DNA of 27,027 nucleotides from a virus. The notes under the pieces were generated by a model that had not been told where the DNA came from, searched no databases, and saw only the letters and a program-made list of their open reading frames with translations. How positions within the stretch are numbered: position 1 is the stretch's first letter; the number at the start of each line of letters is the position of its first letter. The stretch is taken from positions 1 to 27,027 of the IMG/VR virus record IMGVR_UViG_2199352025_000003. One strand, given 5' to 3'. This document shows, piece after piece, positions 4,951 to 21,189 of this stretch. The position numbers and the translations under genes are program-made.

Positions 4951-5345
4951 TACACGATCGTTACGGTTCCAGATAGCTTCATGCTCCAATCAGCAGTTAC
5001 TAGTCCCTTTACATCGCTTTTAACGGTGTAGTCAGTGATGAGACATGGCATCGCATAGGTATTTGCACCTACGTTTCCGATGGTAAACGTAAATGTGGTG
5101 ATAGTACGTGCATAAAAGTTTGTTTCAATGGTTGCCTGCCCCGTATCAGACTTATCAAACTGTCCGCTGCACTTATAATCGCCGCTGAGTAAGCCGCCAA
5201 TGTAGGACTCGGTTCCAGGCGTTGATGCGCTAAATGATGTTGTATCTAGTGCCGCTATTTTTGTTGCTAATTCTTGGCTTTTAACGTTATTAACAACTGT
5301 CGACGCCACTTTAACAGTACTAAGGTATCCTGCTGTTGCCGCCAT
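4950..5345 (-). CDS. Major tail tube protein
   Basis: A 131-residue, Thr/Ser/Val-rich protein predicted to be mostly beta strand. Landmarks are ATKIAALDTTSF (27-38), GTESYIGG (44-51) and TDYTVKSDVKG (104-114). The 'AAxLDTTSF...TExYIGGL' pattern and a late 'D...K..V...L...GTVT' strand fit the small siphophage tail-tube family, which stacks as hexamer rings around the tape measure. It follows the tail terminator gene and precedes the chaperones, the usual position. ATG at 5343-5345 is preceded by AGGAG. It is the more typical of the two tube paralogues and so the likelier major tube subunit. Confidence 0.85.
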   Translation of the reverse strand: MAATAGYLSTVKVASTVVNNVKSQELATKIAALDTTSFSASTPGTESYIGGLLSGDYKCSGQFDKSDTGQATIETNFYARTITTFTFTIGNVGANTYAMPCLITDYTVKSDVKGLVTADWSMKLSGTVTIV

Positions 5346-5397
5346 AATACATTGCTCCTATCTAATTTACATCGCTCTCATTATTTGCATTGTTTTA

Positions 5398-5841
5398 CTA
5401 TGTTTCTTGCGTGAAAGTATTGTATTGACACATAAAACGTCGTATTCTTTCGTCTTTAGGTTCTCCCAATGGCCGTCCGAAGTTATACAGCGTATAAACA
5501 TGATGATGTGTTGCCAACGACAGTAGTTGTTGATCGAATAAGTCGTTTAGAATATTTAAAATGCTGTAACATTCTTGATAACCTGCATAGATACTCCATA
5601 TGTCTATTTGAGCAGTTGCTACGTAACCCCGTGTGCCAAAGGCATTGTCTGGCCTCTCAGGAGACCCACTAAAAAGCGTGATATATGGAAAGGCTTGGTT
5701 TTCAGGCTGCATACCAAAGTCGAATACCCCTGTTACGCCAAGGTTTGCAAGATCTGTTTGAATCGCTCCATTCGGACCTGGAACAAGTCTTGCAAAAAAT
5801 GCCGTTTGTAATTCAGGTAGAGAGGTTCTTGTAGCTGTCAT
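5398..5841 (-). CDS. Tail terminator/completion protein, DUF3168-like
   Basis: A 147-residue protein with the layout of DUF3168 (gp17/gpU-type tail terminator): an N-terminal helix (LPELQTAFFARL), the PYITLFSGSPE block, a central AQIDIWSIYAGYQECYSILNIL block and a late strand with RRFMCQYNTFTQET. Such proteins cap the tail tube and join it to the head. It overlaps the upstream gp10-like gene by ATGA, which indicates coupled translation, and is followed by the tube genes. The family call rests on pattern and position. Confidence 0.75.
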   Translation of the reverse strand: MTATRTSLPELQTAFFARLVPGPNGAIQTDLANLGVTGVFDFGMQPENQAFPYITLFSGSPERPDNAFGTRGYVATAQIDIWSIYAGYQECYSILNILNDLFDQQLLSLATHHHVYTLYNFGRPLGEPKDERIRRFMCQYNTFTQET

Positions 5842-6164
5842 AAGTCCCCAATTTCACCCAGTAAATATTCCTTAGCGAAATCGAATGCAGGTAACATGAA
5901 GGCTTGAGGTACGTTGTACATGGTCCCCATTTCGACGTATACTGCATAATCTGAGTCTGTTGACACCTCACACTCTAAAAATCCAGGAATGCACATTATG
6001 CTTTCTTGCAATGCGCCGGTATCTACAGGAACCGCTGCCGTTGCATAATCTTGGCAATCAAGACCTGTCTCTTGAATGATTTGATCTACATCAATCGCAA
6101 AAGCATCAATATCATTGCCAATCATCGCAATTGTTGCTTCTACACCGATGATTTCAGTACTCAT
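5838..6164 (-). CDS. HK97 gp10-like tail completion protein
   Basis: A 108-residue protein with hallmarks of the HK97 gp10 family: VDTGAL (47-52) followed by a Ser-Ile strand, YVEMGT (76-81) and the P-x-x-F-M-x-P-A block (86-93). These proteins sit at the head-tail joint. The frame is open seven codons further upstream, but ATG at 6162-6164 is preferred because GAGG lies nine bases before it. This start overlaps the end of the upstream zinc-ribbon gene by 11 bases. Confidence 0.82.
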   Translation of the reverse strand: MSTEIIGVEATIAMIGNDIDAFAIDVDQIIQETGLDCQDYATAAVPVDTGALQESIMCIPGFLECEVSTDSDYAVYVEMGTMYNVPQAFMLPAFDFAKEYLLGEIGDL

Positions 6165-6351
6165 CGCGCAAAACCTCGTTCTCATAGCCTCTAAAAGCGC
6201 CGGATAACATGGCCCTTCTGCCGACTCTCGTTGCTAATTGATCAAGCATTGAATTAGCAACGTCAGGACTAAGATGTCTTAGCTCATCATTGATGATTTG
6301 ACGTATTTCTTCGTTGTTGTTGACTTCGTTGTGACAATGCGGGCAATGCAT
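6154..6351 (-). CDS. Zinc-ribbon microprotein (copy 2)
   Basis: A 65-residue protein starting MHCPHCHNEV: one Cys-x2-Cys knuckle at residues 3-6 and no second Cys pair in the chain, so metal binding would need dimerisation or the nearby His residues. The rest is helical and charged (EEIRQIINDELRHLS, DVANSMLDQLATRVG). The upstream gene begins almost identically, MQCPHCGNEV, so the two are tandem relatives at their N-termini only. Start and upstream stop overlap as TAATG. It sits inside the head-tail completion cluster. Function unknown. Confidence 0.7.
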   Translation of the reverse strand: MHCPHCHNEVNNNEEIRQIINDELRHLSPDVANSMLDQLATRVGRRAMLSGAFRGYENEVLRDEY

Positions 6352-6572
6352 TATTGTTGCTCCGATGCATTAGCAGTGATATCAAGAGAATTGATGACAA
6401 CAGGGTTAAAGCCAAGTCCTCCAGAGCATACCGATGGCATTGGATTAAGCATCGTTGTATTATTGACAACCCACGAAGAAGTCATTGTTGAGGCACAGCC
6501 GTTGACGTTAGGCGCTGCATTCAACGCTGTTATCTGTTGATAGACTTCGTTACCACAATGAGGACATTGCAT
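6351..6572 (-). CDS. Zinc-ribbon microprotein (copy 1)
   Basis: A 73-residue protein beginning MQCPHCGNEV. ATG at 6570-6572 is chosen over an ATG six codons upstream because AGGAG lies seven bases before it and the resulting N-terminus matches the next gene's. Only one Cys-x2-Cys pair is present near the start, with isolated Cys later at about 26 and 49. The remainder is Asn/Ser/Thr/Val-rich and looks flexible, unlike the helical body of its neighbour. It ends by TAATG overlap into copy 2. Function unknown. Confidence 0.65.
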   Translation of the reverse strand: MQCPHCGNEVYQQITALNAAPNVNGCASTMTSSWVVNNTTMLNPMPSVCSGGLGFNPVVINSLDITANASEQQ

Positions 6573-6582
6573 ATCGATACTC

Positions 6583-6807
6583 CTATTCATTCACTGCAAT
6601 GGAACCATTTGCAGCCATACGTGCTTCCCACAGCTTTGTAAGTGCAATCGACTGCTCTCTTGACTCTGGTGTAAGATCTGCAATTAAGAGCGCAAACTCT
6701 TTAAATGCTTCTGTGATCTTTGAATACCGTTCAACTTGGTCATTCTTAGGCGCGTGAAAACTAAATCTATTCTCAATATCTGCACGCTGTTTATCGCTAA
6801 TACTCAT
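6583..6807 (-). CDS. Acb2/Tad1-hairpin-like small protein (candidate anti-CBASS cyclic-nucleotide sponge)
   Basis: A 74-residue, all-helical protein. The features IENRFSFHAPK (11-21), QVERY (24-28) and PESREQSIALTKL-EA---AN--IA-NE (47-74) match the pattern I know for the phage family of Acb2 (T4 Vs.4-related), 'RFxxHxPK...QxxRY...SREKSLALTxLEEAxxWANAxIARNE'. Acb2 proteins form oligomers that sequester cyclic di- and trinucleotides and so block CBASS immunity. The Trp before AN in typical members is replaced here (MAAN), and LEEA reads LWEA. ATG at 6805-6807 has GGGAG four bases upstream. It lies among structural genes rather than in an early accessory block. The family assignment is from memory of the pattern; ligand binding is inferred. 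Confidence 0.65.
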   Translation of the reverse strand: MSISDKQRADIENRFSFHAPKNDQVERYSKITEAFKEFALLIADLTPESREQSIALTKLWEARMAANGSIAVNE

Positions 6808-6817
6808 ATTGCTCCCA

Positions 6818-7030
6818 CTAATCTATAATCGCACCGCTTTCAGTGCGATTTAAGAACGTCAAAGACGTGCCATCATTCTTGATGAAGGAAATCCACGACA
6901 TATCTTGTGGCTCTATCCACCCCTGCCAATCATCTGCAAAACAGCGACATCCTTCAGGCCAATTCTTCCGGTCCTCTTCAGGTGTCTTTTCATACCGTCC
7001 TATGATAAGTGGCTCTGCTACTTGACTCAT
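6818..7030 (-). CDS. Small protein of unknown function
   Basis: A 70-residue protein, not recognised. It is rich in Trp, Asp and Glu (NWPEGCRCFADDWQGWIEP, MSWISFIKNDGTSL) and has a short C-R-C motif. The composition suggests a small folded beta protein. AGGAG lies seven bases before ATG at 7028-7030. It is part of the run of short genes between the connector proteins and the tail completion genes. Confidence 0.65.
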   Translation of the reverse strand: MSQVAEPLIIGRYEKTPEEDRKNWPEGCRCFADDWQGWIEPQDMSWISFIKNDGTSLTFLNRTESGAIID

Positions 7031-10511: not shown

Positions 10512-11924
10512 CTATGATGTGGCACATTTCAAAGCCCGAAACGCTTCTGGAAGAAGCACGTCCCCGCCAACACGTTTTCTAGCGATAAAACCGATCAATC
10601 CTTGAGCTGCATAAAGTTCATTAAGTTGCTGCATACTCAGTGCAATGCGATCTACAATCATGTAATTTTTGAAATCACCGACAACGACGGGGTAGTTGTT
10701 TGCGCCAATTTCATTCATGTCAGGCATCTCAACGTAAGGCCTGCCGTAAATTGTTGGCTCTACCTTATCCGCAGCAAACGGCTGCCAAAGGTATCTATTT
10801 TGTGAGTCTTTCAGCAAACGAAGAGTATTGAGTGTGGCCCTAGTAAAGATGTAAGTGGCGTTTGCTTCGTAGAAAGCCTTAAGATCATAGAGAACATTGA
10901 TGATGCTGTCCGCAGTGATAGTTGTTGCATTTGTGGTAGGAACATAAGGAATGGCATCGGTTACATTGTTCTTACCAGCAGAACCACCTATATAGCCTGC
11001 GCTCGCTTTGATCGGATAGCTCAAAATGCCACGAGGCCTACCAACACCATTGCCGCTGACAAATGCAATACCTTCAGCGCGTGCGAACTGGATTGCCAAG
11101 CGCTCTTTAATGAAGCTCTCCAAGTCGAACATGGAATCTTCGATGTTTTGCATCGAAACTTTGAGCAAACCACGCAATTCATGCACTGGGATAGTGATCA
11201 TTGCAACGGTAGGATCAAGGCTATCAGCGAAGTTCTGTTGTTCCACTGCCCACACTGCTGTTGCATCGTTAGCCAAGGCAGGCATTTCGATCCGCTCGCC
11301 TGAAGTTTGCTGTACGCGGCAAATGCTTCTCATCTTTGAAATCAGGACTTGGTAAGCCTGCAATTCCATGATGAAGTCATTGCTAGCGAAGAAACCACCG
11401 GTTGTAGCATCGCCTGCATAAAGAGCTTTGCGCTCTATTGGCATGTGATCGAAGAAGACGAGGCTTTTCTCTTCTGGAGTCAGATCACTAAAGCGATTTT
11501 TAGAGCGGATAGCCTTAATGAAAGCCTTGTAGCCATCGCTCTTTCCCTCTTCCCTGCCTTTTTTGAGGTCCCCCCAAGGGTTGGGTCTTTGTTCAGCAAC
11601 CTTGAATTCCTCAAAAAACTTCATGACTGATTTGTAGTCATTAACCTGTGTTTTAAGAAGATTTTCAATTTCAGTGTTTTTTGCTTCTAATGCAGCATTC
11701 TTAGTTGTTAGCTCAATCTCTCTTGTTTTGAGGATATCTTCAAGATCAGAGAGACGATTGCCCATCTTGTCAACATTTTCTTTGTATTCTCCAGGTAATT
11801 GCCCTGCCTTAGAAACTATTTCATCTCCAAGCTTTTTCTGCTCTTTTTCAATAACATCTATTTTTTCCTGAAACTTATAAGCAGTATTCCTGAATTCATA
11901 CAAAACGTCTTGTACATCTGGCAT
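10512..11924 (-). CDS. Major capsid protein, HK97 family
   Basis: A 470-residue protein. Residues 1-110 are strongly charged and form a long predicted coiled coil (heptads through NVDKMGNRLSDLEDILKTRE), the scaffold-like delta domain removed on maturation. After the ALYAGDATTGGFF block (about 167-179) the HK97 fold follows: SICRVQQTSGERIEMPAL, LLKVSMQNIEDSMFDLESF, RAEGIAFVSGNGVGRPRGIL, and near the end NYPVVVGDFKNYMIVDRI. Cleavage by the upstream protease is expected between the coiled coil and the ALYAG block. AAGGA lies nine bases before ATG at 11922-11924. A short palindrome lies in its leader. Confidence 0.97.
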   Translation of the reverse strand: MPDVQDVLYEFRNTAYKFQEKIDVIEKEQKKLGDEIVSKAGQLPGEYKENVDKMGNRLSDLEDILKTREIELTTKNAALEAKNTEIENLLKTQVNDYKSVMKFFEEFKVAEQRPNPWGDLKKGREEGKSDGYKAFIKAIRSKNRFSDLTPEEKSLVFFDHMPIERKALYAGDATTGGFFASNDFIMELQAYQVLISKMRSICRVQQTSGERIEMPALANDATAVWAVEQQNFADSLDPTVAMITIPVHELRGLLKVSMQNIEDSMFDLESFIKERLAIQFARAEGIAFVSGNGVGRPRGILSYPIKASAGYIGGSAGKNNVTDAIPYVPTTNATTITADSIINVLYDLKAFYEANATYIFTRATLNTLRLLKDSQNRYLWQPFAADKVEPTIYGRPYVEMPDMNEIGANNYPVVVGDFKNYMIVDRIALSMQQLNELYAAQGLIGFIARKRVGGDVLLPEAFRALKCATS

Positions 11925-11975: not shown

Positions 11976-13598
11976 TTAGCTCAGGCTAAGTCCAACTTTT
12001 TTGAGATCTTCAATAACGTCAGCAATGGCTTTGTCCTCGTCCGCAGTGCTTTTCAGCGAGTGCTTCGAGTCACTATGTGCCAGTGGCGGGATAGTGTTTC
12101 TGCCTTTGCCTTCCTGTTGATCGTCGTCAGGTTTGCCGGAATCATCGCCTGTATATGGTGTTTCAGCGCCTTGCATTGTACTTGCAAAATCATCCGCTGC
12201 CGTACGCACAGCTTTAACATGATCTTGCATTGATTTGACAGCTTTCTGTGCCTCGTCCGCCGTATCACGCAGACTCTTTATGTGGTTGTCGATTGTTCGT
12301 TGGTTAGAGGTGCTAATAGAGCGACCTGCTTTTAAATTAGGATTATGATCATTGCTCATATATCCGTAATTCGGCTTGCTGTCAGAGCCATATTGCATGG
12401 TGTAGTCAGCAGGAGTATAGGAATATCCGCTGTCCACAATGTATTTAGTGAGATTACACTCAATAGCCTGTGCTACAAACTTGGAGAGAACTAGAGCCTT
12501 CCAGTCATCAAGCGCTTGGCTAATATCTTGCTCTGGTTGATCTCCGATTTTAAATGCATCAAGAACTGATTTAGTGATTGTGCATAGAAATATATCCCGC
12601 CAATCTTCCAATAAATCTTCACACATTTCTTGAGCATAATGCTCTAATACGGTTTTTCTTTGCATAGTTGTTTGCTTGCCTTTCCCGTCATCCTTCCAGG
12701 AAGGGGTTAATTGTGGATCATCAGGGTATTCATTGTTAATCCGCTTATAAAGTTTTTCTACCTTGCCTTTTAACCCATCAGGAGCATCAGCGTTTCTAGC
12801 GCCCCCAATAGCACCGGCAATTGCAATAACAGCGCCTACACAGATACGAGGCTCATCATTGACAACATAGCAAAACGGATAAGACCACGATCCTTTTTGT
12901 TGAGCATCGCCATCCAGTATCATGAAGCATTGTTTTAATTTAGAGACATCAAAGGTTTCATCGTCTTTTGTTGCATAAGCAAAGATTTGTTTTTCGGCTT
13001 TATTGCCATCCCATGCTTCATCACGAGGTCCTATGGGAAGGCCGGTGCTTCCAGTGATAGTTTTTGTTTCTGCAATAACTGCATTGGCTTTTACATCGGT
13101 TACTACGGCTTCTAAATTCATTGGAAACACTACGATGCTGCCTTCCCATAATCTAACCTCAATCAGGTCACGCACCCATTGCCCATCAACTTTAGTATTT
13201 TCAGATTGTAACGAGTCATAGCCTATAGATTGCTGAAATACATAACCCTTCTTTAATGCGCTATACGCCTCTTTACCTTTTTGCACATCAAGATCTAGTT
13301 CAAGCTCAACAAAGAGGCCAATGTTATCTTCCTTGGCTTCCGTGTATCCCCCGATAGGAGTATTAGGATCATGTTGCCATAGAAGTGGCATTATGTAACG
13401 CTTATTATTAGTTTTTTTATATTCATACTTGTTTTGCAGTGTTCTCTTGAATGCTCCTGGAAGTACTCTATCACCGCCTTCATCCACATTATTGAATGTA
13501 CTCAAGTAACCGCGTACAATACCCTTTTCATCATCAAAGTCTTTGGCTTGGAATGGAAAGGCTTTAGTTTGTCTTGTGATAGTTGTTGTTTTACTCAT
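11976..13598 (-). CDS. Prohead protease with long C-terminal extension
   Basis: In this 540-residue protein, residues 1-170 are an HK97-type (S78) prohead protease: GIVRGYLSTFNNVDEGGDRV (27-46), LLWQHDP with candidate catalytic His76, QQSIGY with candidate Ser124, and IEVRLWEGSIV (146-156), which may supply the acidic residue. It cleaves the capsid delta domain during maturation. Typical members are about 200 residues. Here about 370 more follow: a domain starting AWDGNKAEKQIFAYA (195-209) with ICVGAVIAIAGAIGGARNA, then an unrecognised region, then a predicted coiled coil (IDNHIKSLRDTADEAQKAV). The extension may work as a tethered scaffold. The start overlaps the portal stop by ATGA. Confidence 0.9.
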   Translation of the reverse strand: MSKTTTITRQTKAFPFQAKDFDDEKGIVRGYLSTFNNVDEGGDRVLPGAFKRTLQNKYEYKKTNNKRYIMPLLWQHDPNTPIGGYTEAKEDNIGLFVELELDLDVQKGKEAYSALKKGYVFQQSIGYDSLQSENTKVDGQWVRDLIEVRLWEGSIVVFPMNLEAVVTDVKANAVIAETKTITGSTGLPIGPRDEAWDGNKAEKQIFAYATKDDETFDVSKLKQCFMILDGDAQQKGSWSYPFCYVVNDEPRICVGAVIAIAGAIGGARNADAPDGLKGKVEKLYKRINNEYPDDPQLTPSWKDDGKGKQTTMQRKTVLEHYAQEMCEDLLEDWRDIFLCTITKSVLDAFKIGDQPEQDISQALDDWKALVLSKFVAQAIECNLTKYIVDSGYSYTPADYTMQYGSDSKPNYGYMSNDHNPNLKAGRSISTSNQRTIDNHIKSLRDTADEAQKAVKSMQDHVKAVRTAADDFASTMQGAETPYTGDDSGKPDDDQQEGKGRNTIPPLAHSDSKHSLKSTADEDKAIADVIEDLKKVGLSLS

Positions 13599-16546
13599 TT
13601 TAAAGCTAACTCCATAAATTTACGATATTCATGCTTTGATGTTGATCTTGATTTATACTTTGAAAACACTGATTTATCATCATTACTATTGTCTTCTTCA
13701 TCATTGCTTTGTTTTGCTTCAGATTTCTTAAACCACATGAAACAACGGCACTTACAACAATTCTCAGGACTTCCCGATGGATTTCCAGGGTAATCAAGGT
13801 TTTCACCATCTACCACAAAGGTCTCATCAATCCCTACCTGTTGACCATCAGCATCTCTATGAGCCGGTCTTACATTGCCGTCATTCTGAGATAGCCATAC
13901 CTTGTTCAAAGTTAGTCCAGATGATCTACCAGCCTGGAGGGCAGACCATGACGCGGCGCTATGCGATTCTGTAACGGCGATGTTGGCGCTTCGGCTGGGA
14001 ACGATTTGCTCGAGGTATAAACCATCGATCCGCTTCGCAAGTTGCGGGACGGTTTCACCTGCCTTAACCCCTTGAGATAGTTCTCTTTTGACTTGATCAC
14101 GCGTCGTCTCAGTAATGCCTTTGATTTTCGTTGCTGCCATCTTTGACAAATAATGTTCGGCATTGCTATTAATAATGTCAGTAAAGCTTTTAACATCATA
14201 ATCCGTTGCTCCTGCTTTAAGCTGCTTCAAAATATCATTGCCCACATCGCCTGCCACGTCTTTATATAGTTCAATGATGATCTCTTTAAGATCCGACGCC
14301 TTACTGTTAATCGCTGACTCTGCTCTGTCTTCCGCTGAGCTAGGCAATGCAGCTTCGTAGACAGCGTTAACGACGGCTTTTTGCTCTTTCTTGAAGTAGC
14401 TTTGCAGGCGTTGTTCAGCTTCGGTTTCCCATTTGGCCGTTGCCTTTTCGATGCTCTTGAAGTAGCTTTGCTTTTCTTCGTTAGTGGCAAGGTCTAAGGC
14501 TTTGGTAAGCGACGTTCTGTGTTGTCTCTTCTTAGGTGTTCCCTCTATGGGGAATGAATACCTATCATCTCCGATGCAAAGCCATAGTTGATCGAAGTTC
14601 AGATTTACTGATGGAACATCGTCAATCGGTGTATGGTCCTCGCTATCGATGTAAGCCAACGTTATATGAGGTTGATAATCGAAGTTATTGGCAATATTGA
14701 CATGTGCTGCTTCTAACGTCTCTACCAAGTTCGCACGCCACTTTTGCAGACCACTAATGTTTACTAATGCACATATTGGAGAAAGACCATTGCTCGAATC
14801 TGACGGACTAAAACGAAGGACCCCGCTTGTGATACCTGACAATGGAGAGGCTTCGGAAGCAAAGTCTGACAACAACTTTTTCAATGCATCTACATCGAGA
14901 TCAATGTCATTCTTGTCTCCGAGGAATGCTAGGGTCAGGTGGATTTGATTAACAGGTTCTCCGTCAGGCAGCGCTAATTTCTTTGCTGTCTTTGCATCAG
15001 GGAAGAACGCTATCATAACGCCTGTATGGCCCTCATCGTCATCCTTCGTCACATATCGTCTTTCATCGCTCTTCTTAGGCTTAACAGCATCATCGCTAGT
15101 AGCATTGTCATCTCGATTGTCTGGAGGCTTAACACCGGGCTTATTGTTAGCATTGCCTTGTTGTTGATCGTTGTTTTGTGATGGTTTCGTTGGGTCAGGC
15201 TGATTCGGTTGACCGGGCTTCGTTGGGTCAGGAACATTCAACGGTTCCGGTAGTGCGGCAGGTGCCACTGCTGGCATCGTCAAGCTCTGCTCAGCATATT
15301 TATCAATCTCATCAAGTCGGATAAGGATAGTGCCGATCTTGAGGACATCACCATCGGGTACCGGAGGTAGACCACAAAGCTCACGGCATTCATTAAGGGT
15401 GCCAAGGCCATTCATCCACATCTCGTTGGCTCTTTCGGCCTGCGCTGTTTTCTGCGCTTGAATGATGTTGGCGATGACCTCGACACTTTCTTTGTCATAG
15501 TAAAGAAATGCTTTTGAGTTTTTTAAATCAGAGTACATCGGCACTAGCCACGTATTCCATAATGCATATAAATCGTCAAGCTCAGGAAATATTGCTTCGG
15601 TATAGCTTGCTGCCTTTGCTTGCTCCATATTGTCATAGGTAGACGACGAAGTATCGCCGATAAGCTGTGGCGCGATATTAAGAATGTTGGCTATAGCGCC
15701 TCCGTTGTATTTCAATGAGTCTAGGAAGTCCATCTGAGCAGGATCAAGACCGGTCGGTTTCCAATCAACGCCTCCATCAAAGAGCGGTGCTTTGCCAGCT
15801 CCCTTGGCACCTGCAAACTTTTCATTAAGCTTATCTTCAAGTTTCTTTCTCTCGTTTGGCCCTAGCAGTGCTCCGTACTTCCATATGCCTGGAGGCCTAG
15901 CGCTATTCTGCAAAAGAGCAAGGTTCCACTTCTTAGAATGGGATTGCATATCAATGTTTAATGCTGCTGCTTCGAGAGGGCTTAGTCCCATGCCTGCCTG
16001 ATCATCGTCATCAGGATTCCAGTACTTTGTGTGTCCGATGTTATCCGGTGTGATAACGTCTCTCAGCGTGTCATATTTATAGCCAACAATGCCTTTGTTC
16101 TTAACAATCTGCATTTCAATTTTGTCAGGTCGCAATGTGTACAATTCAGCAGGAGGACCATCCCTTGTTACTCTATTGGCATATTGAAAACAGTTACCAG
16201 CTAAGATCTTATATCCTAATGCTGCTTCTCGATAAGCAACGCCACTTTGATCCTCATTGGGCTTATTCAACAAATCAAGCAATGGATGCTCATCGATCTT
16301 ACCGCTTTTCATTGTCGAATCTTTGAAAAGCACAGGAGGTATTGCTGATCCATTGCGAATAATGTAACTAACGCATTTATAGAGTGTATCGCTGTCTTTA
16401 TAGCCTTCCTTCACAAAGCTCTTGAAGTTCTTTGACATCCTCACTGCCATTGGAACATCGTCGTAATATCCTAGCGACATCCAACGAGGATCGACTTTGC
16501 TTTCGCGACTTTTGAAGGCAGAGGCAACGCGTGTGAAGATATTCAT
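13595..16546 (-). CDS. Portal protein fused to a 2H phosphoesterase domain and a MuF head-morphogenesis domain
   Basis: A single 983-residue frame holds three units. Residues 1-420 are an HK97-type portal (WMSLGYYDD, HPLLDLLNKPNEDQSG, NCFQYANRV, GMGLSPLEAAALNI, NILNIAPQLIGD, LNECRELCGLPPV). Residues 425-495 are a Pro/Asn/Asp-rich linker with DPTKPGQPNQPDPTKPSQ. Residues 505-670 look like a 2H phosphoesterase, with HLTL at 536-539 and HITL at 627-630, as in LigT/2'-5' RNA ligase proteins. Residues 800-938 are a MuF/SPP1 gp7 domain (ANIAVTESHSAASWSAL, KVWLSQNDGNVRPAHRDADG, DYPGNP, CKCRCFMWF). Portal and MuF functions are normally separate genes. It starts by TAATG overlap and ends by ATGA overlap with the protease gene. 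Confidence 0.92.
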   Translation of the reverse strand: MNIFTRVASAFKSRESKVDPRWMSLGYYDDVPMAVRMSKNFKSFVKEGYKDSDTLYKCVSYIIRNGSAIPPVLFKDSTMKSGKIDEHPLLDLLNKPNEDQSGVAYREAALGYKILAGNCFQYANRVTRDGPPAELYTLRPDKIEMQIVKNKGIVGYKYDTLRDVITPDNIGHTKYWNPDDDDQAGMGLSPLEAAALNIDMQSHSKKWNLALLQNSARPPGIWKYGALLGPNERKKLEDKLNEKFAGAKGAGKAPLFDGGVDWKPTGLDPAQMDFLDSLKYNGGAIANILNIAPQLIGDTSSSTYDNMEQAKAASYTEAIFPELDDLYALWNTWLVPMYSDLKNSKAFLYYDKESVEVIANIIQAQKTAQAERANEMWMNGLGTLNECRELCGLPPVPDGDVLKIGTILIRLDEIDKYAEQSLTMPAVAPAALPEPLNVPDPTKPGQPNQPDPTKPSQNNDQQQGNANNKPGVKPPDNRDDNATSDDAVKPKKSDERRYVTKDDDEGHTGVMIAFFPDAKTAKKLALPDGEPVNQIHLTLAFLGDKNDIDLDVDALKKLLSDFASEASPLSGITSGVLRFSPSDSSNGLSPICALVNISGLQKWRANLVETLEAAHVNIANNFDYQPHITLAYIDSEDHTPIDDVPSVNLNFDQLWLCIGDDRYSFPIEGTPKKRQHRTSLTKALDLATNEEKQSYFKSIEKATAKWETEAEQRLQSYFKKEQKAVVNAVYEAALPSSAEDRAESAINSKASDLKEIIIELYKDVAGDVGNDILKQLKAGATDYDVKSFTDIINSNAEHYLSKMAATKIKGITETTRDQVKRELSQGVKAGETVPQLAKRIDGLYLEQIVPSRSANIAVTESHSAASWSALQAGRSSGLTLNKVWLSQNDGNVRPAHRDADGQQVGIDETFVVDGENLDYPGNPSGSPENCCKCRCFMWFKKSEAKQSNDEEDNSNDDKSVFSKYKSRSTSKHEYRKFMELALK

Positions 16547-16965: not shown

Positions 16966-18633
16966 TCACCAATTGTCGCCATAAATACGCGCTGCGAATT
17001 CAAAAGGGTTTATTGGTTTTATTGTTGGTTTTACATATTCAACAGGTATTTCGTTTTCTTCGATATTGATAAAAGGCTGCGTAAACGGTATTTCTCTTTG
17101 GTTTGCGTTGATGGCTTCGGGTTCGATAGGGCCTTCGATGGGATCAGGGATTTCATCGTAATTGCCATCGTCATCGCTGAGAGGACCACGTGACCGGACA
17201 ACGATAGCGGCGAGAGACGTTGCATCTACTTGGTCATCCTTGTGGGCTTTAGGAAACTTATATAACTCACCCTGGAAGCCTGCCAGCCAATTGGCATATT
17301 TAGAAAAATACATTTTGCCATTCGATTGCCAGATAGCCGCCACACCTGCTCTTGATACCTTATCTCTATTAGGCTTAAATGGTTTGCATGGAATACCTTT
17401 TAGCACTAAATCCTGGAAAAGCGCGTGTTGGTAGGCAATGGTTTCTACCGCGCAAAACTCAATATTTTCATCATCATTAAAGATATCCTGTATCTCTTCT
17501 TGCTGCTCATTATGGCCCCAATGCCCTCTAACAAGATCCATAAGCAATATATCGCTATAGGGTGTCTTTGCCCACTTTTGAATTACGGTATAGTCAGCGG
17601 CTTGTTTTTCAGATATAGCAGGATCAACAGTCATAAAGTAAGAACATTCATTTTTATTGATTGCTTTAATACCTTTAGGAGTATGCAAAAAGAATGTATC
17701 ATGGCTCATTGTAAAGAGACGTTCTTTATCACGCGAAAAAACTGCTCCTGATGCTGGTGTAGGCGATTGCTGATACTGTGCTGCATATGCTACGGGACCA
17801 AGCGACTTTTTGAGCATGTCTAGCACTTTTGCAGGAAACTTTTCAGGCCAAAGTAATTCACCGGCCTCTTTTCGCTTATCTTCAAACCCTATGCACGTAG
17901 CATAATGATGTCCAGGCTCGTATTCCGTTGGCAATACAAGATGCTCCCAGCCGCCTAAGCTCAAAACATGGCCCGTAAGGTCACGCTCATGTATCCTTTG
18001 TCCTGCAATGATCATAGCGCCACTATCGTAAGAATTAAGGCGACTCATCCATGTATTGCCGAACCAGTTAACAGTGCTCTCAATTTCGCTATTTGTCGCT
18101 GTTGCATTATTCGGATCATCTATTAGTAAATGCGTTCCTCTTTTGCCTGTTCCGCGTGTTCCAACTGATAACGCCATTCTATGTCCACGACTGGTATTCT
18201 CGAAAAAATTCTTAACATTCTGATCACTGGAGAGTTGAAAAATGTCTCCAAAGCAGGATTGAAACCACTCTGACTCAATGAGGTTACGGCAATTTCGGTT
18301 ATCTCGAATAGCAAGATCAAGACTATGAGAGGCGCAAAGCCATCGGGTGGTAGGATCTTTAATCCACATCCAAGCCGGATACATTACACTAAAAATCGTA
18401 GATTTCATGTGACCCGGCGCTATGTTGCAAACAAGCTTATTTATCTCTCCACGATAGACCGCCTCTAAATGGTCTGCAATAGCGTCAATGTGCCAATTCC
18501 ACAAAAGATCTACACCGGGTTCAATGACATCCCAGGCAAGACGAATAAAAGCCTTAAAAGACTCCTGAGAGCGCCCTCGCACCTCAGTTGCTATTTTTTG
18601 ACTATTTACTACATCTCGCACTGCCAACGTCAT
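16966..18633 (-). CDS. terL: Large terminase subunit (DNA-packaging ATPase-nuclease)
   Basis: A 555-residue protein that pumps DNA into the prohead and cuts concatemers. ATPase motifs: Walker A-like APGHMKST (72-79), Walker B HLLIDDP (168-174) and coupling motif QRIHERDL (212-219). Then WEHLVLP (229-235), GELLWPEKF (258-266) and YAAQYQQSP (283-291), all typical of the family. Nuclease residues: Asp337 in MTVDPAIS, Glu397 in CAVET and the acidic cluster HKDDQVDA (464-471). The protein looks complete and functional. It starts by ATGA overlap with the ASCH/small-terminase gene, which implies coupled translation and stoichiometric production. Confidence 0.98.
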   Translation of the reverse strand: MTLAVRDVVNSQKIATEVRGRSQESFKAFIRLAWDVIEPGVDLLWNWHIDAIADHLEAVYRGEINKLVCNIAPGHMKSTIFSVMYPAWMWIKDPTTRWLCASHSLDLAIRDNRNCRNLIESEWFQSCFGDIFQLSSDQNVKNFFENTSRGHRMALSVGTRGTGKRGTHLLIDDPNNATATNSEIESTVNWFGNTWMSRLNSYDSGAMIIAGQRIHERDLTGHVLSLGGWEHLVLPTEYEPGHHYATCIGFEDKRKEAGELLWPEKFPAKVLDMLKKSLGPVAYAAQYQQSPTPASGAVFSRDKERLFTMSHDTFFLHTPKGIKAINKNECSYFMTVDPAISEKQAADYTVIQKWAKTPYSDILLMDLVRGHWGHNEQQEEIQDIFNDDENIEFCAVETIAYQHALFQDLVLKGIPCKPFKPNRDKVSRAGVAAIWQSNGKMYFSKYANWLAGFQGELYKFPKAHKDDQVDATSLAAIVVRSRGPLSDDDGNYDEIPDPIEGPIEPEAINANQREIPFTQPFINIEENEIPVEYVKPTIKPINPFEFAARIYGDNW

Positions 18634-19733
18634 TTTGTATTGCCTCCCTGCTGTCTCTGTGAGAGCTGCAATGCAATACGCTGTGCCTGTGCTAGTTCCT
18701 CGTCTGTGAGAAGTTGCAATTTAGGATCGCGCTTAATGTTGATGGGACCACCATTAGGACCAGAATGTTCTATCTGCTGTTTGTCTCTATATTCTGGAAA
18801 GTGTTTCTTGATAGCCATAGCAAGCAAATTATCGCTGACAACGCGTTCCATCAGTGGCTCGCCGCGTTTATAAACAGGCTTGCCCTTATCATCTAGTACG
18901 GCATTGCCATGTTTATCAAGAACAGGGGTTTCATTGTATACAATGTGCCCCATTGAAACTACTGTTCTTTCATAGCCTTTCGTCGCTCGCTTTGTAAATT
19001 CAGCGAGAATGATGTCTCCGAAGTCTTTTTCGGCTTGATTGTACTGTAAGCTAAATTGCTCATCATGCTCTAACCATTGATAGAAGGTATTTCTGCTTAT
19101 GCCAGCTTTTTTACAAGACAGCATGATGCTGCCATTAACCTCGTAAGCTTTGAGGAAAGTTTTTTGAGCAAGCTCACGCTCTGCTTTTGTGAGACGTACC
19201 CCATTTGGGCGTGAGTTTGTGCGCACGTGCGTAATAGCCTGTGAAGGTGTGTTAAGGTTATTAGCGCTTTCAAGCTTCTCAGCGTTAATCTCAAAGATGC
19301 TTGGAGCACCTGGAATTGACATAAAAGGTAGGGGATGAGCATCTTGCAGAACGAAACCGTACTTATATTTATTTTGAAACCAAGGGCTAGTACTCTCTTT
19401 GACAGAATCTACGAGATTGACTTTACCTATGATGCCGCCTGTCTTCATTTCTCTGAGCAGGTCTTCACACTGTTCCTGAGACCAATTGAGGATACTTCTT
19501 GCGTGCTCCCATGAGAATGACTTATCAATCCTCTTGCTAGCATGAATGAGCAGAGGACCACGATGCAAGGTAGTCCAGTTCCTATTTTCGATATCCTTCA
19601 ATCCAAGAACAATGAGCTGAGCACATGGTTGCTGAATTGAGATACAGCGCATTCGATTATATTCTTCTAGCTGAGTTTTCTCATCAGATGAAGCAAGAGG
19701 AAACAATTGCGTAGGATATATTTGCATCACCAT
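18630..19733 (-). CDS. terS: ASCH-domain/small terminase subunit fusion
   Basis: A 367-residue protein. Residues 28-150 match an ASCH (PUA-like) domain: MRCISIQQPCAQLIVLGLKD with the GxKxxExR signature at 44-51 (GLKDIENR), then GPLLIHASK, GGIIGKVNLVD and YKYGFVLQD. Residues about 180-320 look like a small terminase subunit: RLTKAERELAQKTFLKAYE, a helix-turn-helix at 199-222 (GSIMLSCKKAGISRNTFYQW), then FTKRATKGYE and VSDNLLAMAIKKHFPEYRD. TerS recognises phage DNA and loads TerL, encoded next with ATGA overlap. ASCH domains bind nucleic acid or nucleosides, and some are amidohydrolases. The N-terminal fusion is unusual and could add RNA or modified-base recognition. AGGAGG lies six bases before ATG at 19731-19733. 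Confidence 0.88.
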   Translation of the reverse strand: MVMQIYPTQLFPLASSDEKTQLEEYNRMRCISIQQPCAQLIVLGLKDIENRNWTTLHRGPLLIHASKRIDKSFSWEHARSILNWSQEQCEDLLREMKTGGIIGKVNLVDSVKESTSPWFQNKYKYGFVLQDAHPLPFMSIPGAPSIFEINAEKLESANNLNTPSQAITHVRTNSRPNGVRLTKAERELAQKTFLKAYEVNGSIMLSCKKAGISRNTFYQWLEHDEQFSLQYNQAEKDFGDIILAEFTKRATKGYERTVVSMGHIVYNETPVLDKHGNAVLDDKGKPVYKRGEPLMERVVSDNLLAMAIKKHFPEYRDKQQIEHSGPNGGPINIKRDPKLQLLTDEELAQAQRIALQLSQRQQGGNTK

Positions 19734-19793: not shown

Positions 19794-21092
19794 TCAGACA
19801 TATGTCGCCTCCCCTGCATGCTCTAGGAGTATGGCCTCGTCCCCAGTTTCAGCTTCGTAACGCTCTAAAATCACGCTTGCGTACTTCTCGTCCAGTTCCA
19901 TAGCATAACAACGTCTACCCTCACGCTCTGCTGCGATAATACAAGTACCACTACCTGCGAACGGTTCATAAACTATTTCATCTGGTTGTGTATGATTGCG
20001 TATCGGGATAGCAAATAATTCAAGTGGTTTTTGGGTAGGATGGATCTTGTCATTTTCTCTTGCGACTTCCCATACGTCGGATTGATTGCGTTCTCCATAA
20101 AAAGGGCATTTGCCATTTCCTTGACGCCAGCCATGTAAAGCCCATTCACAGCGAGGGTGATAGTGCAATCTCCCAATAACAAACCCAGGCTTTACCCATA
20201 CAACGGGTTGATGAACAAAATACCCAGAATCAACAAGAGCCGTTTCAAAGATCATGCGTTGACCCCGATGCCAAACATAGAAAGGCATTGGAGGATCTCC
20301 GGCGTGCTTTGCAGCTTCCAAGAAATCCATGAGGAATTGCTTGAGGTCTTTGCCTGTTTTGTCGTCATTTTCGATTGAGCCATGCAGGACTGCATGGCTA
20401 TGTCCATAGCCATGCGCTTGCATATCTTGCGCTTTCTTCACCCAAGAGTCACCGTATGGAGGGTCCGTAGCCATCAATACGGCCTTTTCGTCCTGCATTA
20501 ATCGGCGTACACTCTCGGAGTTTGTTGAGTCTGCAATAAGTAATCTGTGATTACCAAGCTGCCACAGCTCACCTTTTTTACATCGAACCTCTACCGTCTC
20601 TGGATCAGCTTCAAAATCATCACCACCATCTCCCTCATCATCATCACCACTGTTACCGAGATATTCATCACCCAACGACTCCAGTAATTGTCTTAGCGAT
20701 TCGTCGTCACTTCCCAGTGAAGCGAGGTCATACCCTACATTCTGCTGCTCTTGCAATAATTGCGCTAAAATCTCTTGGTCATCCTGTGCATTCAATGCGT
20801 GTAAATTGTCAGCTACAAGTATAGCGTCAATTTCATCTTGCGGCGTTGAAGGGGGAAGTATGTCCGCTCGTACAGAAGTAACACCATTGCGCTGCATGGC
20901 TTCGATAATGCCATGACCGGCGACAGTGATATATTCACCATTAGGTCTCTCCCAAAGGACGCAGCTTCTAAACTGACCGAAGCGAGAATGAGACACTCCA
21001 AGTTGAGAAAGCTGGCTATCGGGGTGATTTCGATAGTTGCGCTCATGTGGCTTAATTGCTTCGATTGGGACAGCCCTATTGATTACTTCCAT
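19794..21092 (-). CDS. ParB-like domain/DNA methyltransferase fusion
   Basis: The start at 21090-21092 gives 432 residues. The frame is open 26 codons further up, but that stretch contains a transcription terminator and is rejected. Residues 1-115 are ParB/Sulfiredoxin-like (VPIEAIKPHERNYRNHP, ITVAGHGIIEAMQRNG, VADNLHALN). An acidic linker follows at 150-163. Residues 168-415 are an N6-adenine or N4-cytosine methyltransferase: GELWQLGNHRLLIADST, catalytic DPPYG (210-214), HPTQKP (351-356) and the SAM site EPFAGSGT (376-383), catalytic motif before the SAM motif. Such fusions are common in phages and may methylate phage DNA against host restriction. It heads the late gene run just before the terminase genes. 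The target sequence is unknown. Confidence 0.93.
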   Translation of the reverse strand: MEVINRAVPIEAIKPHERNYRNHPDSQLSQLGVSHSRFGQFRSCVLWERPNGEYITVAGHGIIEAMQRNGVTSVRADILPPSTPQDEIDAILVADNLHALNAQDDQEILAQLLQEQQNVGYDLASLGSDDESLRQLLESLGDEYLGNSGDDDEGDGGDDFEADPETVEVRCKKGELWQLGNHRLLIADSTNSESVRRLMQDEKAVLMATDPPYGDSWVKKAQDMQAHGYGHSHAVLHGSIENDDKTGKDLKQFLMDFLEAAKHAGDPPMPFYVWHRGQRMIFETALVDSGYFVHQPVVWVKPGFVIGRLHYHPRCEWALHGWRQGNGKCPFYGERNQSDVWEVARENDKIHPTQKPLELFAIPIRNHTQPDEIVYEPFAGSGTCIIAAEREGRRCYAMELDEKYASVILERYEAETGDEAILLEHAGEATYV

Positions 21093-21114
21093 AACGCTTT
21101 CTATATACTCCGAA

Positions 21115-21157
21115 CAAACAAAAAGGGCGTCTCTCTCCGTATTGGAGAAAAACGCCC
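21115..21157 (-). terminator. Strong intrinsic terminator
   Basis: On the minus strand the inverted repeat at 21125-21157 begins GGGCGTTTTTCTCC, has loop AATAC, and closes with GGAGAGAGACGCCC: a 14-bp stem including three G-U pairs. It is followed directly by TTTTTGTTTG (21115-21124). It lies just after the small gene at 21190-21399 and just before the methyltransferase start, so it separates the accessory arm from the late genes. Late transcription must either start below it or read through by antitermination. Confidence 0.9.
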
Positions 21158-21189
21158 GTGAGTATCTCAATCTAGGTGTTATGCGTTAT

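Follow-up and report, generated by a model that had tools for sequence, protein, structure and literature searches.

A phage portal protein carrying a LigT-like 2H phosphoesterase domain and a MuF domain in one reading frame

The fusion gene and its late-gene neighbourhood

The stretch of DNA analysed here (the window) is a virus contig of 27,027 bases. Within it, a single open frame on the minus strand, starting with an ATG at position 16,546 and closed by one terminal stop, encodes a protein of 983 residues, while the plus strand across the same interval is rich in stops. A reading made from the sequence only had proposed, with no strand stated, that a portal, a 2H phosphoesterase and a MuF domain are fused in this frame, and the proposal is borne out by Pfam matches that all exceed their curated cut-offs. 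These comprise Phage_portal at residues 54-390 (194.4 bits against a cut-off of 39.1), 2_5_RNA_ligase2 at residues 533-638 (1.7e-6), LigT_PEase at residues 531-580 (5.8e-6), and Phage_Mu_F at residues 817-936 (46.8 bits against 29.6). In NCBIfam, the portal_HK97 model (TIGR01537) also passes its threshold (148.6 bits, cut-off 112.05), and the 2H and MuF matches lie under theirs. PHROGs returned portal families, an "RNA ligase" family (phrog_14859, 1.9e-29, residues 507-667), and head-morphogenesis families. A Pfam match to Cas9_PI (E 0.005), below cut-off, was treated as spurious.

The full-length AlphaFold model displays three separately folded modules (residues ~45-424, 506-670, and 689-945), each confident, with weak stretches in the portal module between residues 178 and 272 and a short C-terminal helix of lower certainty. 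The pTM of this model is low (0.37); confidence holds within the modules and not for their arrangement. The Pro/Asn-rich linker noticed earlier between the portal and 2H parts is present and disordered in the model, and a flexible tether of 81 residues is thus predicted to precede the 2H domain. Table 1 collects the features of the locus.

Table 1. Features of the fusion gene and its neighbours in the window, in window coordinates
Feature	Position	Strand	Basis
Terminase large subunit	16966..18633	(-)	Pfam, PHROGs
Portal-2H-MuF fusion gene, 983 aa plus stop	13595..16546	(-)	ORF, Pfam, full-length model
HK97-type portal core, aa 45-424	15275..16414	(-)	PF04860 3.7e-57; portal_HK97 2.4e-43; PDB 6tba portal 4.4e-37
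Disordered Pro/Asn/Gln-rich linker, aa 425-505	15032..15274	(-)	pLDDT <50 in full-length model
2H (LigT-like) phosphoesterase domain, aa 506-670	14537..15031	(-)	Pfam; AlphaFold pLDDT 92.9; Foldseek
First HxTx motif HLTL, aa 536-539	14930..14941	(-)	H and T invariant in 70/70 aligned domains
Second HxTx motif HITL, aa 627-630	14657..14668	(-)	H in 69/70, T/S in 70/70 aligned domains
MuF domain, aa 689-945	13712..14482	(-)	PF04233 5.8e-12; phrog_2468 6.4e-46 over aa 693-946
C-terminal tail helix (..EYRKFMELALK)	13598..13645	(-)	Kept in relatives with and without 2H/MuF
HK97-type prohead protease (S78), long C-terminal extension	11976..13598	(-)	PF04586 1.7e-28; 4-nt overlap with fusion gene
Major capsid protein	10512..11924	(-)	Pfam
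Acb2/Tad1 hairpin-family gene, 74 aa, candidate cyclic-nucleotide sponge	6583..6807	(-)	PF24729 5.9e-15

The gene lies between the terminase large subunit gene and those of the prohead protease and major capsid protein, as is the case for an HK97-type portal, and it shares 1 nt with the upstream ORF as well as the overlap with the protease gene. The prohead protease that had been read next to the fusion is confirmed as HK97-type. Scans of the operon for promoters and terminators gave nothing clearly above chance. Two further minus-strand genes were recorded beyond the terminase: a 367-residue terminase small subunit-like protein (18630-19733), with N-terminal matches to phrog_3193 and, at weak strength, to an ASCH domain, and a 458-residue protein (19794-21170) whose matches are ParB-like at the N-terminus and to N6/N4 DNA methyltransferases at the C-terminus.

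An Acb2-like gene had also been placed in this cluster, and its match to Acb2_Tad1_hairpin (55.6 bits, cut-off 27) sustains that assignment; in the PDB, the best chain, Acb2 homolog 43, scores only E 0.27. This gene sits among small ORFs between the head-closure and tail genes. A homologue with 51% identity lies in the corresponding tail-gene region of one related record (L044), a different phage (L045) has a weaker match just above cut-off, and no match came from the 68 remaining records searched, of which many are fragments. Because two of the three positive records are syntenic relatives, the association between the Acb2-family gene and a head-fused 2H domain is only suggestive.

Fold and relatives of the 2H domain

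The HLTL and HITL motifs were found at residues 536 and 627, exactly where the first reading had put them, and of the 70 aligned 2H domains 69 retain both HxT motifs. That reading had been staked beforehand on a 2H fold, and this is the fold that emerged. Built on a 70-row alignment, the AlphaFold model of the domain reached a pLDDT of 92.9, and Foldseek matched it in the PDB to CPDase (5h7e, 3.4e-7) and E. coli LigT (5ldm, 7.1e-7), with a probability of 1.00 for both. Viral 2'-5' phosphodiesterases were also matched, Acb1 (7t27) ranked lower at 2.7e-4, and matches to Usb1 were weak. A search of PDB sequences with the single 2H sequence produced nothing useful; a profile search gave LigT-like enzymes as best matches (2e-10 to 3e-8), with alignments spanning both HxT motifs, and Acb1 at 0.013. 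Altogether, the domain is apparently a catalytically competent, LigT-like phosphodiesterase, as judged from its profile and its predicted fold.

An affinity to Acb1, the anti-CBASS phosphodiesterase named in the first reading, is not supported by these comparisons. LigT and other RNA 2',3'-cyclic phosphodiesterases are closer by both sequence and fold, and membership in Acb1 is rejected at the profile level. The Pfam family of Acb1 (PF23474) gave no match in the fusion protein at E<=1, and only weak matches, below cut-off, in some distant relatives. Acb1 is not known to occur within a head protein. Although Acb1 has in common with the window domain a 2H fold with the HxT/HxT tetrad, it is more remote from it than LigT; features described for Acb1 include base-stacking aromatics and a lid with Glu141 (PMC9117128).

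The proximity to LigT bears on the possible, though not favoured, explanation that the domain serves in RNA-end repair or processing. It would then open 2',3'-cyclic phosphates or cut 2'-5' links as LigT/ThpR does, on substrates such as tRNAs cleaved by host defence, with the link to the head merely securing late expression. LigT/ThpR shares the fold and the HxTx pair and supplies the best PDB matches, so that RNA 2',3'-cyclic phosphodiesterases are the nearest relatives on both counts, and the LigT/ThpR equivalog model TIGR02258 does match (1.9e-5), albeit under its cut-off (24.6 bits against 65.7). LigT/ThpR itself is a free cellular enzyme. Against RNA repair, repeated fusion to portals, MuF proteins, and proteases would be unexpected for a free repair enzyme, and Iyer et al. 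never observed these 2H versions in association with RNA ligases (PMC5512222).

Recurrence and exchange of the 2H domain

The single 2H sequence recovered no relatives from viral contigs, but a scan with a six-row 2H alignment yielded 436 encoding loci, 80 of which were kept. These 80 were retrieved by 2H sequence and not by context, the seed rows themselves being head-gene 2H domains. Portal, 2H, and MuF follow one another in one frame in L044, L050, L051, L053, L071/L079, L077, L090, and L099, and also in L138, a Streptomyces albipurpureus contig. The MuF part is clear in L044, L051, and L099, falls under the Pfam cut-off in L050, L071, L077, L090, and L138, and was called in L053 from a local profile together with PHROGs. 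These fusions are built on more than one type of portal, being Mu-type in L077, L090, and L099 and of another family (phrog_3753) in L053. L044 and L051, at 46% and 38% identity across 989 and 990 aligned columns, respectively, share the domain order and flanking gene order of the window. Since the same triple fusion recurs in independent records (L044, L051, L099, and L138), a sequencing error or frameshift joining separate genes is ruled out.

Other records carry a portal and 2H domain with no MuF detected (L042, L043, L045, and L048, among others), and in further loci the 2H domain lies within MuF or prohead-protease proteins. In a phage collection, 354 records match the window 2H domain, nearly all of them actinobacteriophages and many in head genes. 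Genome contigs scanned with the portal alignment gave no matches; with the 2H alignment they gave mostly actinobacterial genomes at about 25-33% identity, which does not thereby identify the host.

Close relatives of the window portal differ in what follows it. L004 (the same place as L022) has a portal 69% identical and a MuF domain 62% identical to those of the window but lacks the 2H domain, keeping the "TKALDL" that flanks the start of MuF. L003 consists of the portal only, and L002 has the portal with a different short tail. In the portal tree, these three cluster with the window under full support, a single group containing three architectures. Conversely, the window 2H domain shares 56-59% identity with its counterparts in L042, L045, and L048, although the portals of these records have ~20% identity or no detectable similarity to that of the window; the 2H tree likewise mixes portal types in several places, its deep branches being weak. 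The 2H domain therefore behaves as an exchangeable cassette, given its presence or absence between portals ~70% alike and the occurrence of 54-59% identical 2H domains on portals only ~20% alike. Furthermore, a peptide of the form Y-R/K/Q-x-F-M makes up the C-terminal end in the window, L002, L003, L004, L023, L043, and L044, with or without 2H and MuF. As this tail is kept whatever precedes it, insertion of the domains behind the portal core and ahead of a retained tail appears, from sequence comparison, to have taken place. The L002 protein (4977-6848, plus strand) bears a short C-terminal Cys-rich stretch (CEFCLDNDG...CHRFCRC) that by eye resembles the end of MuF.

The absence of the domain from L002, L003, and L004 is what would be seen if it were a tolerated or structural spacer in head assembly for which catalysis is unneeded. 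We regard this as highly improbable, since intact HxT/HxT motifs in all but one of the divergent domains favour an enzyme over a spacer, and the domain occurs on several portal types. The general statement in the sequence-only reading that portal and MuF are usually separate genes needs qualification, as fusions of the two are not rare (L004 and L024-L026). They are also found in a single chain in Bacillus phage Silence, Geobacillus phage GBK2, and Microbacterium phages of clusters EA and EB, in which a 2H domain is neither reported nor found. Microbacterium phages are described as having both portal-MuF and MuF-toxin fusions (PMC7302621).

Proposed role in infection

Both the kind of fusion and the counter-defence hypothesis are already published. 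In 2017, Iyer et al. described fusions of 2H domains with MuF or portal domains, for which they suggested an RNase function or a part in degrading nucleotide immune signals (PMC5512222), and a 2022 paper restates the proposal for 2H domains whose packaging and injection are predicted (PMC9503650). The window gene shares with these systems a 2H domain on a portal or MuF head protein, for which packaging and action on nucleotide signals or RNA are proposed there; the head-protein fusion of the virion-delivered effectors in PMC5512222 is found here as well. It is a clear additional example, with a three-domain order that the relevant passages of the two texts, which name MuF or portal fusions, do not spell out.

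Our reading, in which we place about even confidence, is that the gene product is a phage portal subunit extended C-terminally by 2H and MuF domains and that the 2H domain protects infection by cutting a ribonucleotide substrate. Judging from established portal biology, roughly twelve portal chains would assemble into a ring, and segments that follow the portal core could reach the head interior, placing several 2H domains inside the procapsid and virion. The substrate, a less certain step, would most likely be an immune nucleotide signal, RNA ends being the main alternative. The domain could act while attached to newly made portal in the producing cell, with no cleavage needed. Alternatively, the 2H-MuF part could be cut loose, for instance by the adjacent prohead protease, leave with the DNA, and act in the next cell. 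We give these two possibilities equal weight.

Several observations speak for the protective reading. In the loci fetched by 2H sequence, albeit with seed rows drawn from head genes, the domain occurs on several portal types, MuF proteins, and prohead proteases, a context that counts as evidence for an enzyme belonging with the head. Another candidate anti-signalling gene, from the Acb2 family, occupies the late cluster of both the window and L044 and is also found in L045. Among LigT-like phosphodiesterases, phage T4 Acb1 (PMC9117128) and avian poxvirus enzymes (PMC11410667) cleave cGAMP. In phage 80alpha, one ejection protein is a minor capsid protein whose gene lies between those of the portal and the capsid (PMC7290940). 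Against the same reading, an enzyme anchored to the portal and left uncleaved would not be expected to pass into the cell, the closest solved relatives by profile and predicted fold are RNA 2',3'-cyclic phosphodiesterases and not Acb1, and most records with a 2H head fusion, many being fragments, have no Acb2-family match.

It is unlikely, in our judgement, that the domain acts instead as a virion RNase or effector degrading host RNA after delivery, in the manner of the PBECR domains found on MuF and portal proteins. This was among the proposals of PMC5512222, and Usb1 does appear weakly among the fold matches, but LigT is closer than Usb1 by sequence and fold. A wider version of the protective reading, which we consider rather doubtful, would combine two layers of counter-defence, in which a signal-cutting enzyme borne on the portal of every virion and a late Acb2-family sponge silence cyclic-nucleotide immunity, with the enzyme cassette traded between unrelated portals.

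If the 2H domain is active and present in the virion, the phage would have resistance to nucleotide-signal immunity, or RNA repair, ready to hand at the point of DNA entry. Since the cassette is exchanged between very different portals and is present or absent among near relatives, what Iyer et al. predicted can be put to a direct test, for which there are cultured actinobacteriophages whose head genes contain a 2H domain, Microbacterium phage OneinaGillian (gp22) among them. These phages encode head-region "RNA ligase" or "capsid maturation protease and MuF-like fusion" proteins (phrog_14859, phrog_2659, and phrog_18402; for example, Arthrobacter phage Edmundo gp18, Streptomyces phage TP1604 gp11, and Gordonia phage GMA2 Orf10) with the same 2H type in the same head-gene region. 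In the examples examined, however, the domain lies on MuF and/or the prohead protease, or in a neighbouring gene, and not between portal and MuF. Other arrangements were seen among the retrieved records, all on the plus strand. Two Streptomyces contigs join the 2H domain in a single frame to an S78 prohead protease (L147, 1331-3868) or to a GNAT-like match (L148, 4510-6504). In L117 (2621-6049), the MuF pieces of a 2H protein are split by an intein-like stretch (PF14890, 1.1e-6, below cut-off), and a MuF protein in L027 (3509-5368) has a weak zinc-metallopeptidase match close to its C-terminus (PF15890, 2.6e-5, just below cut-off).
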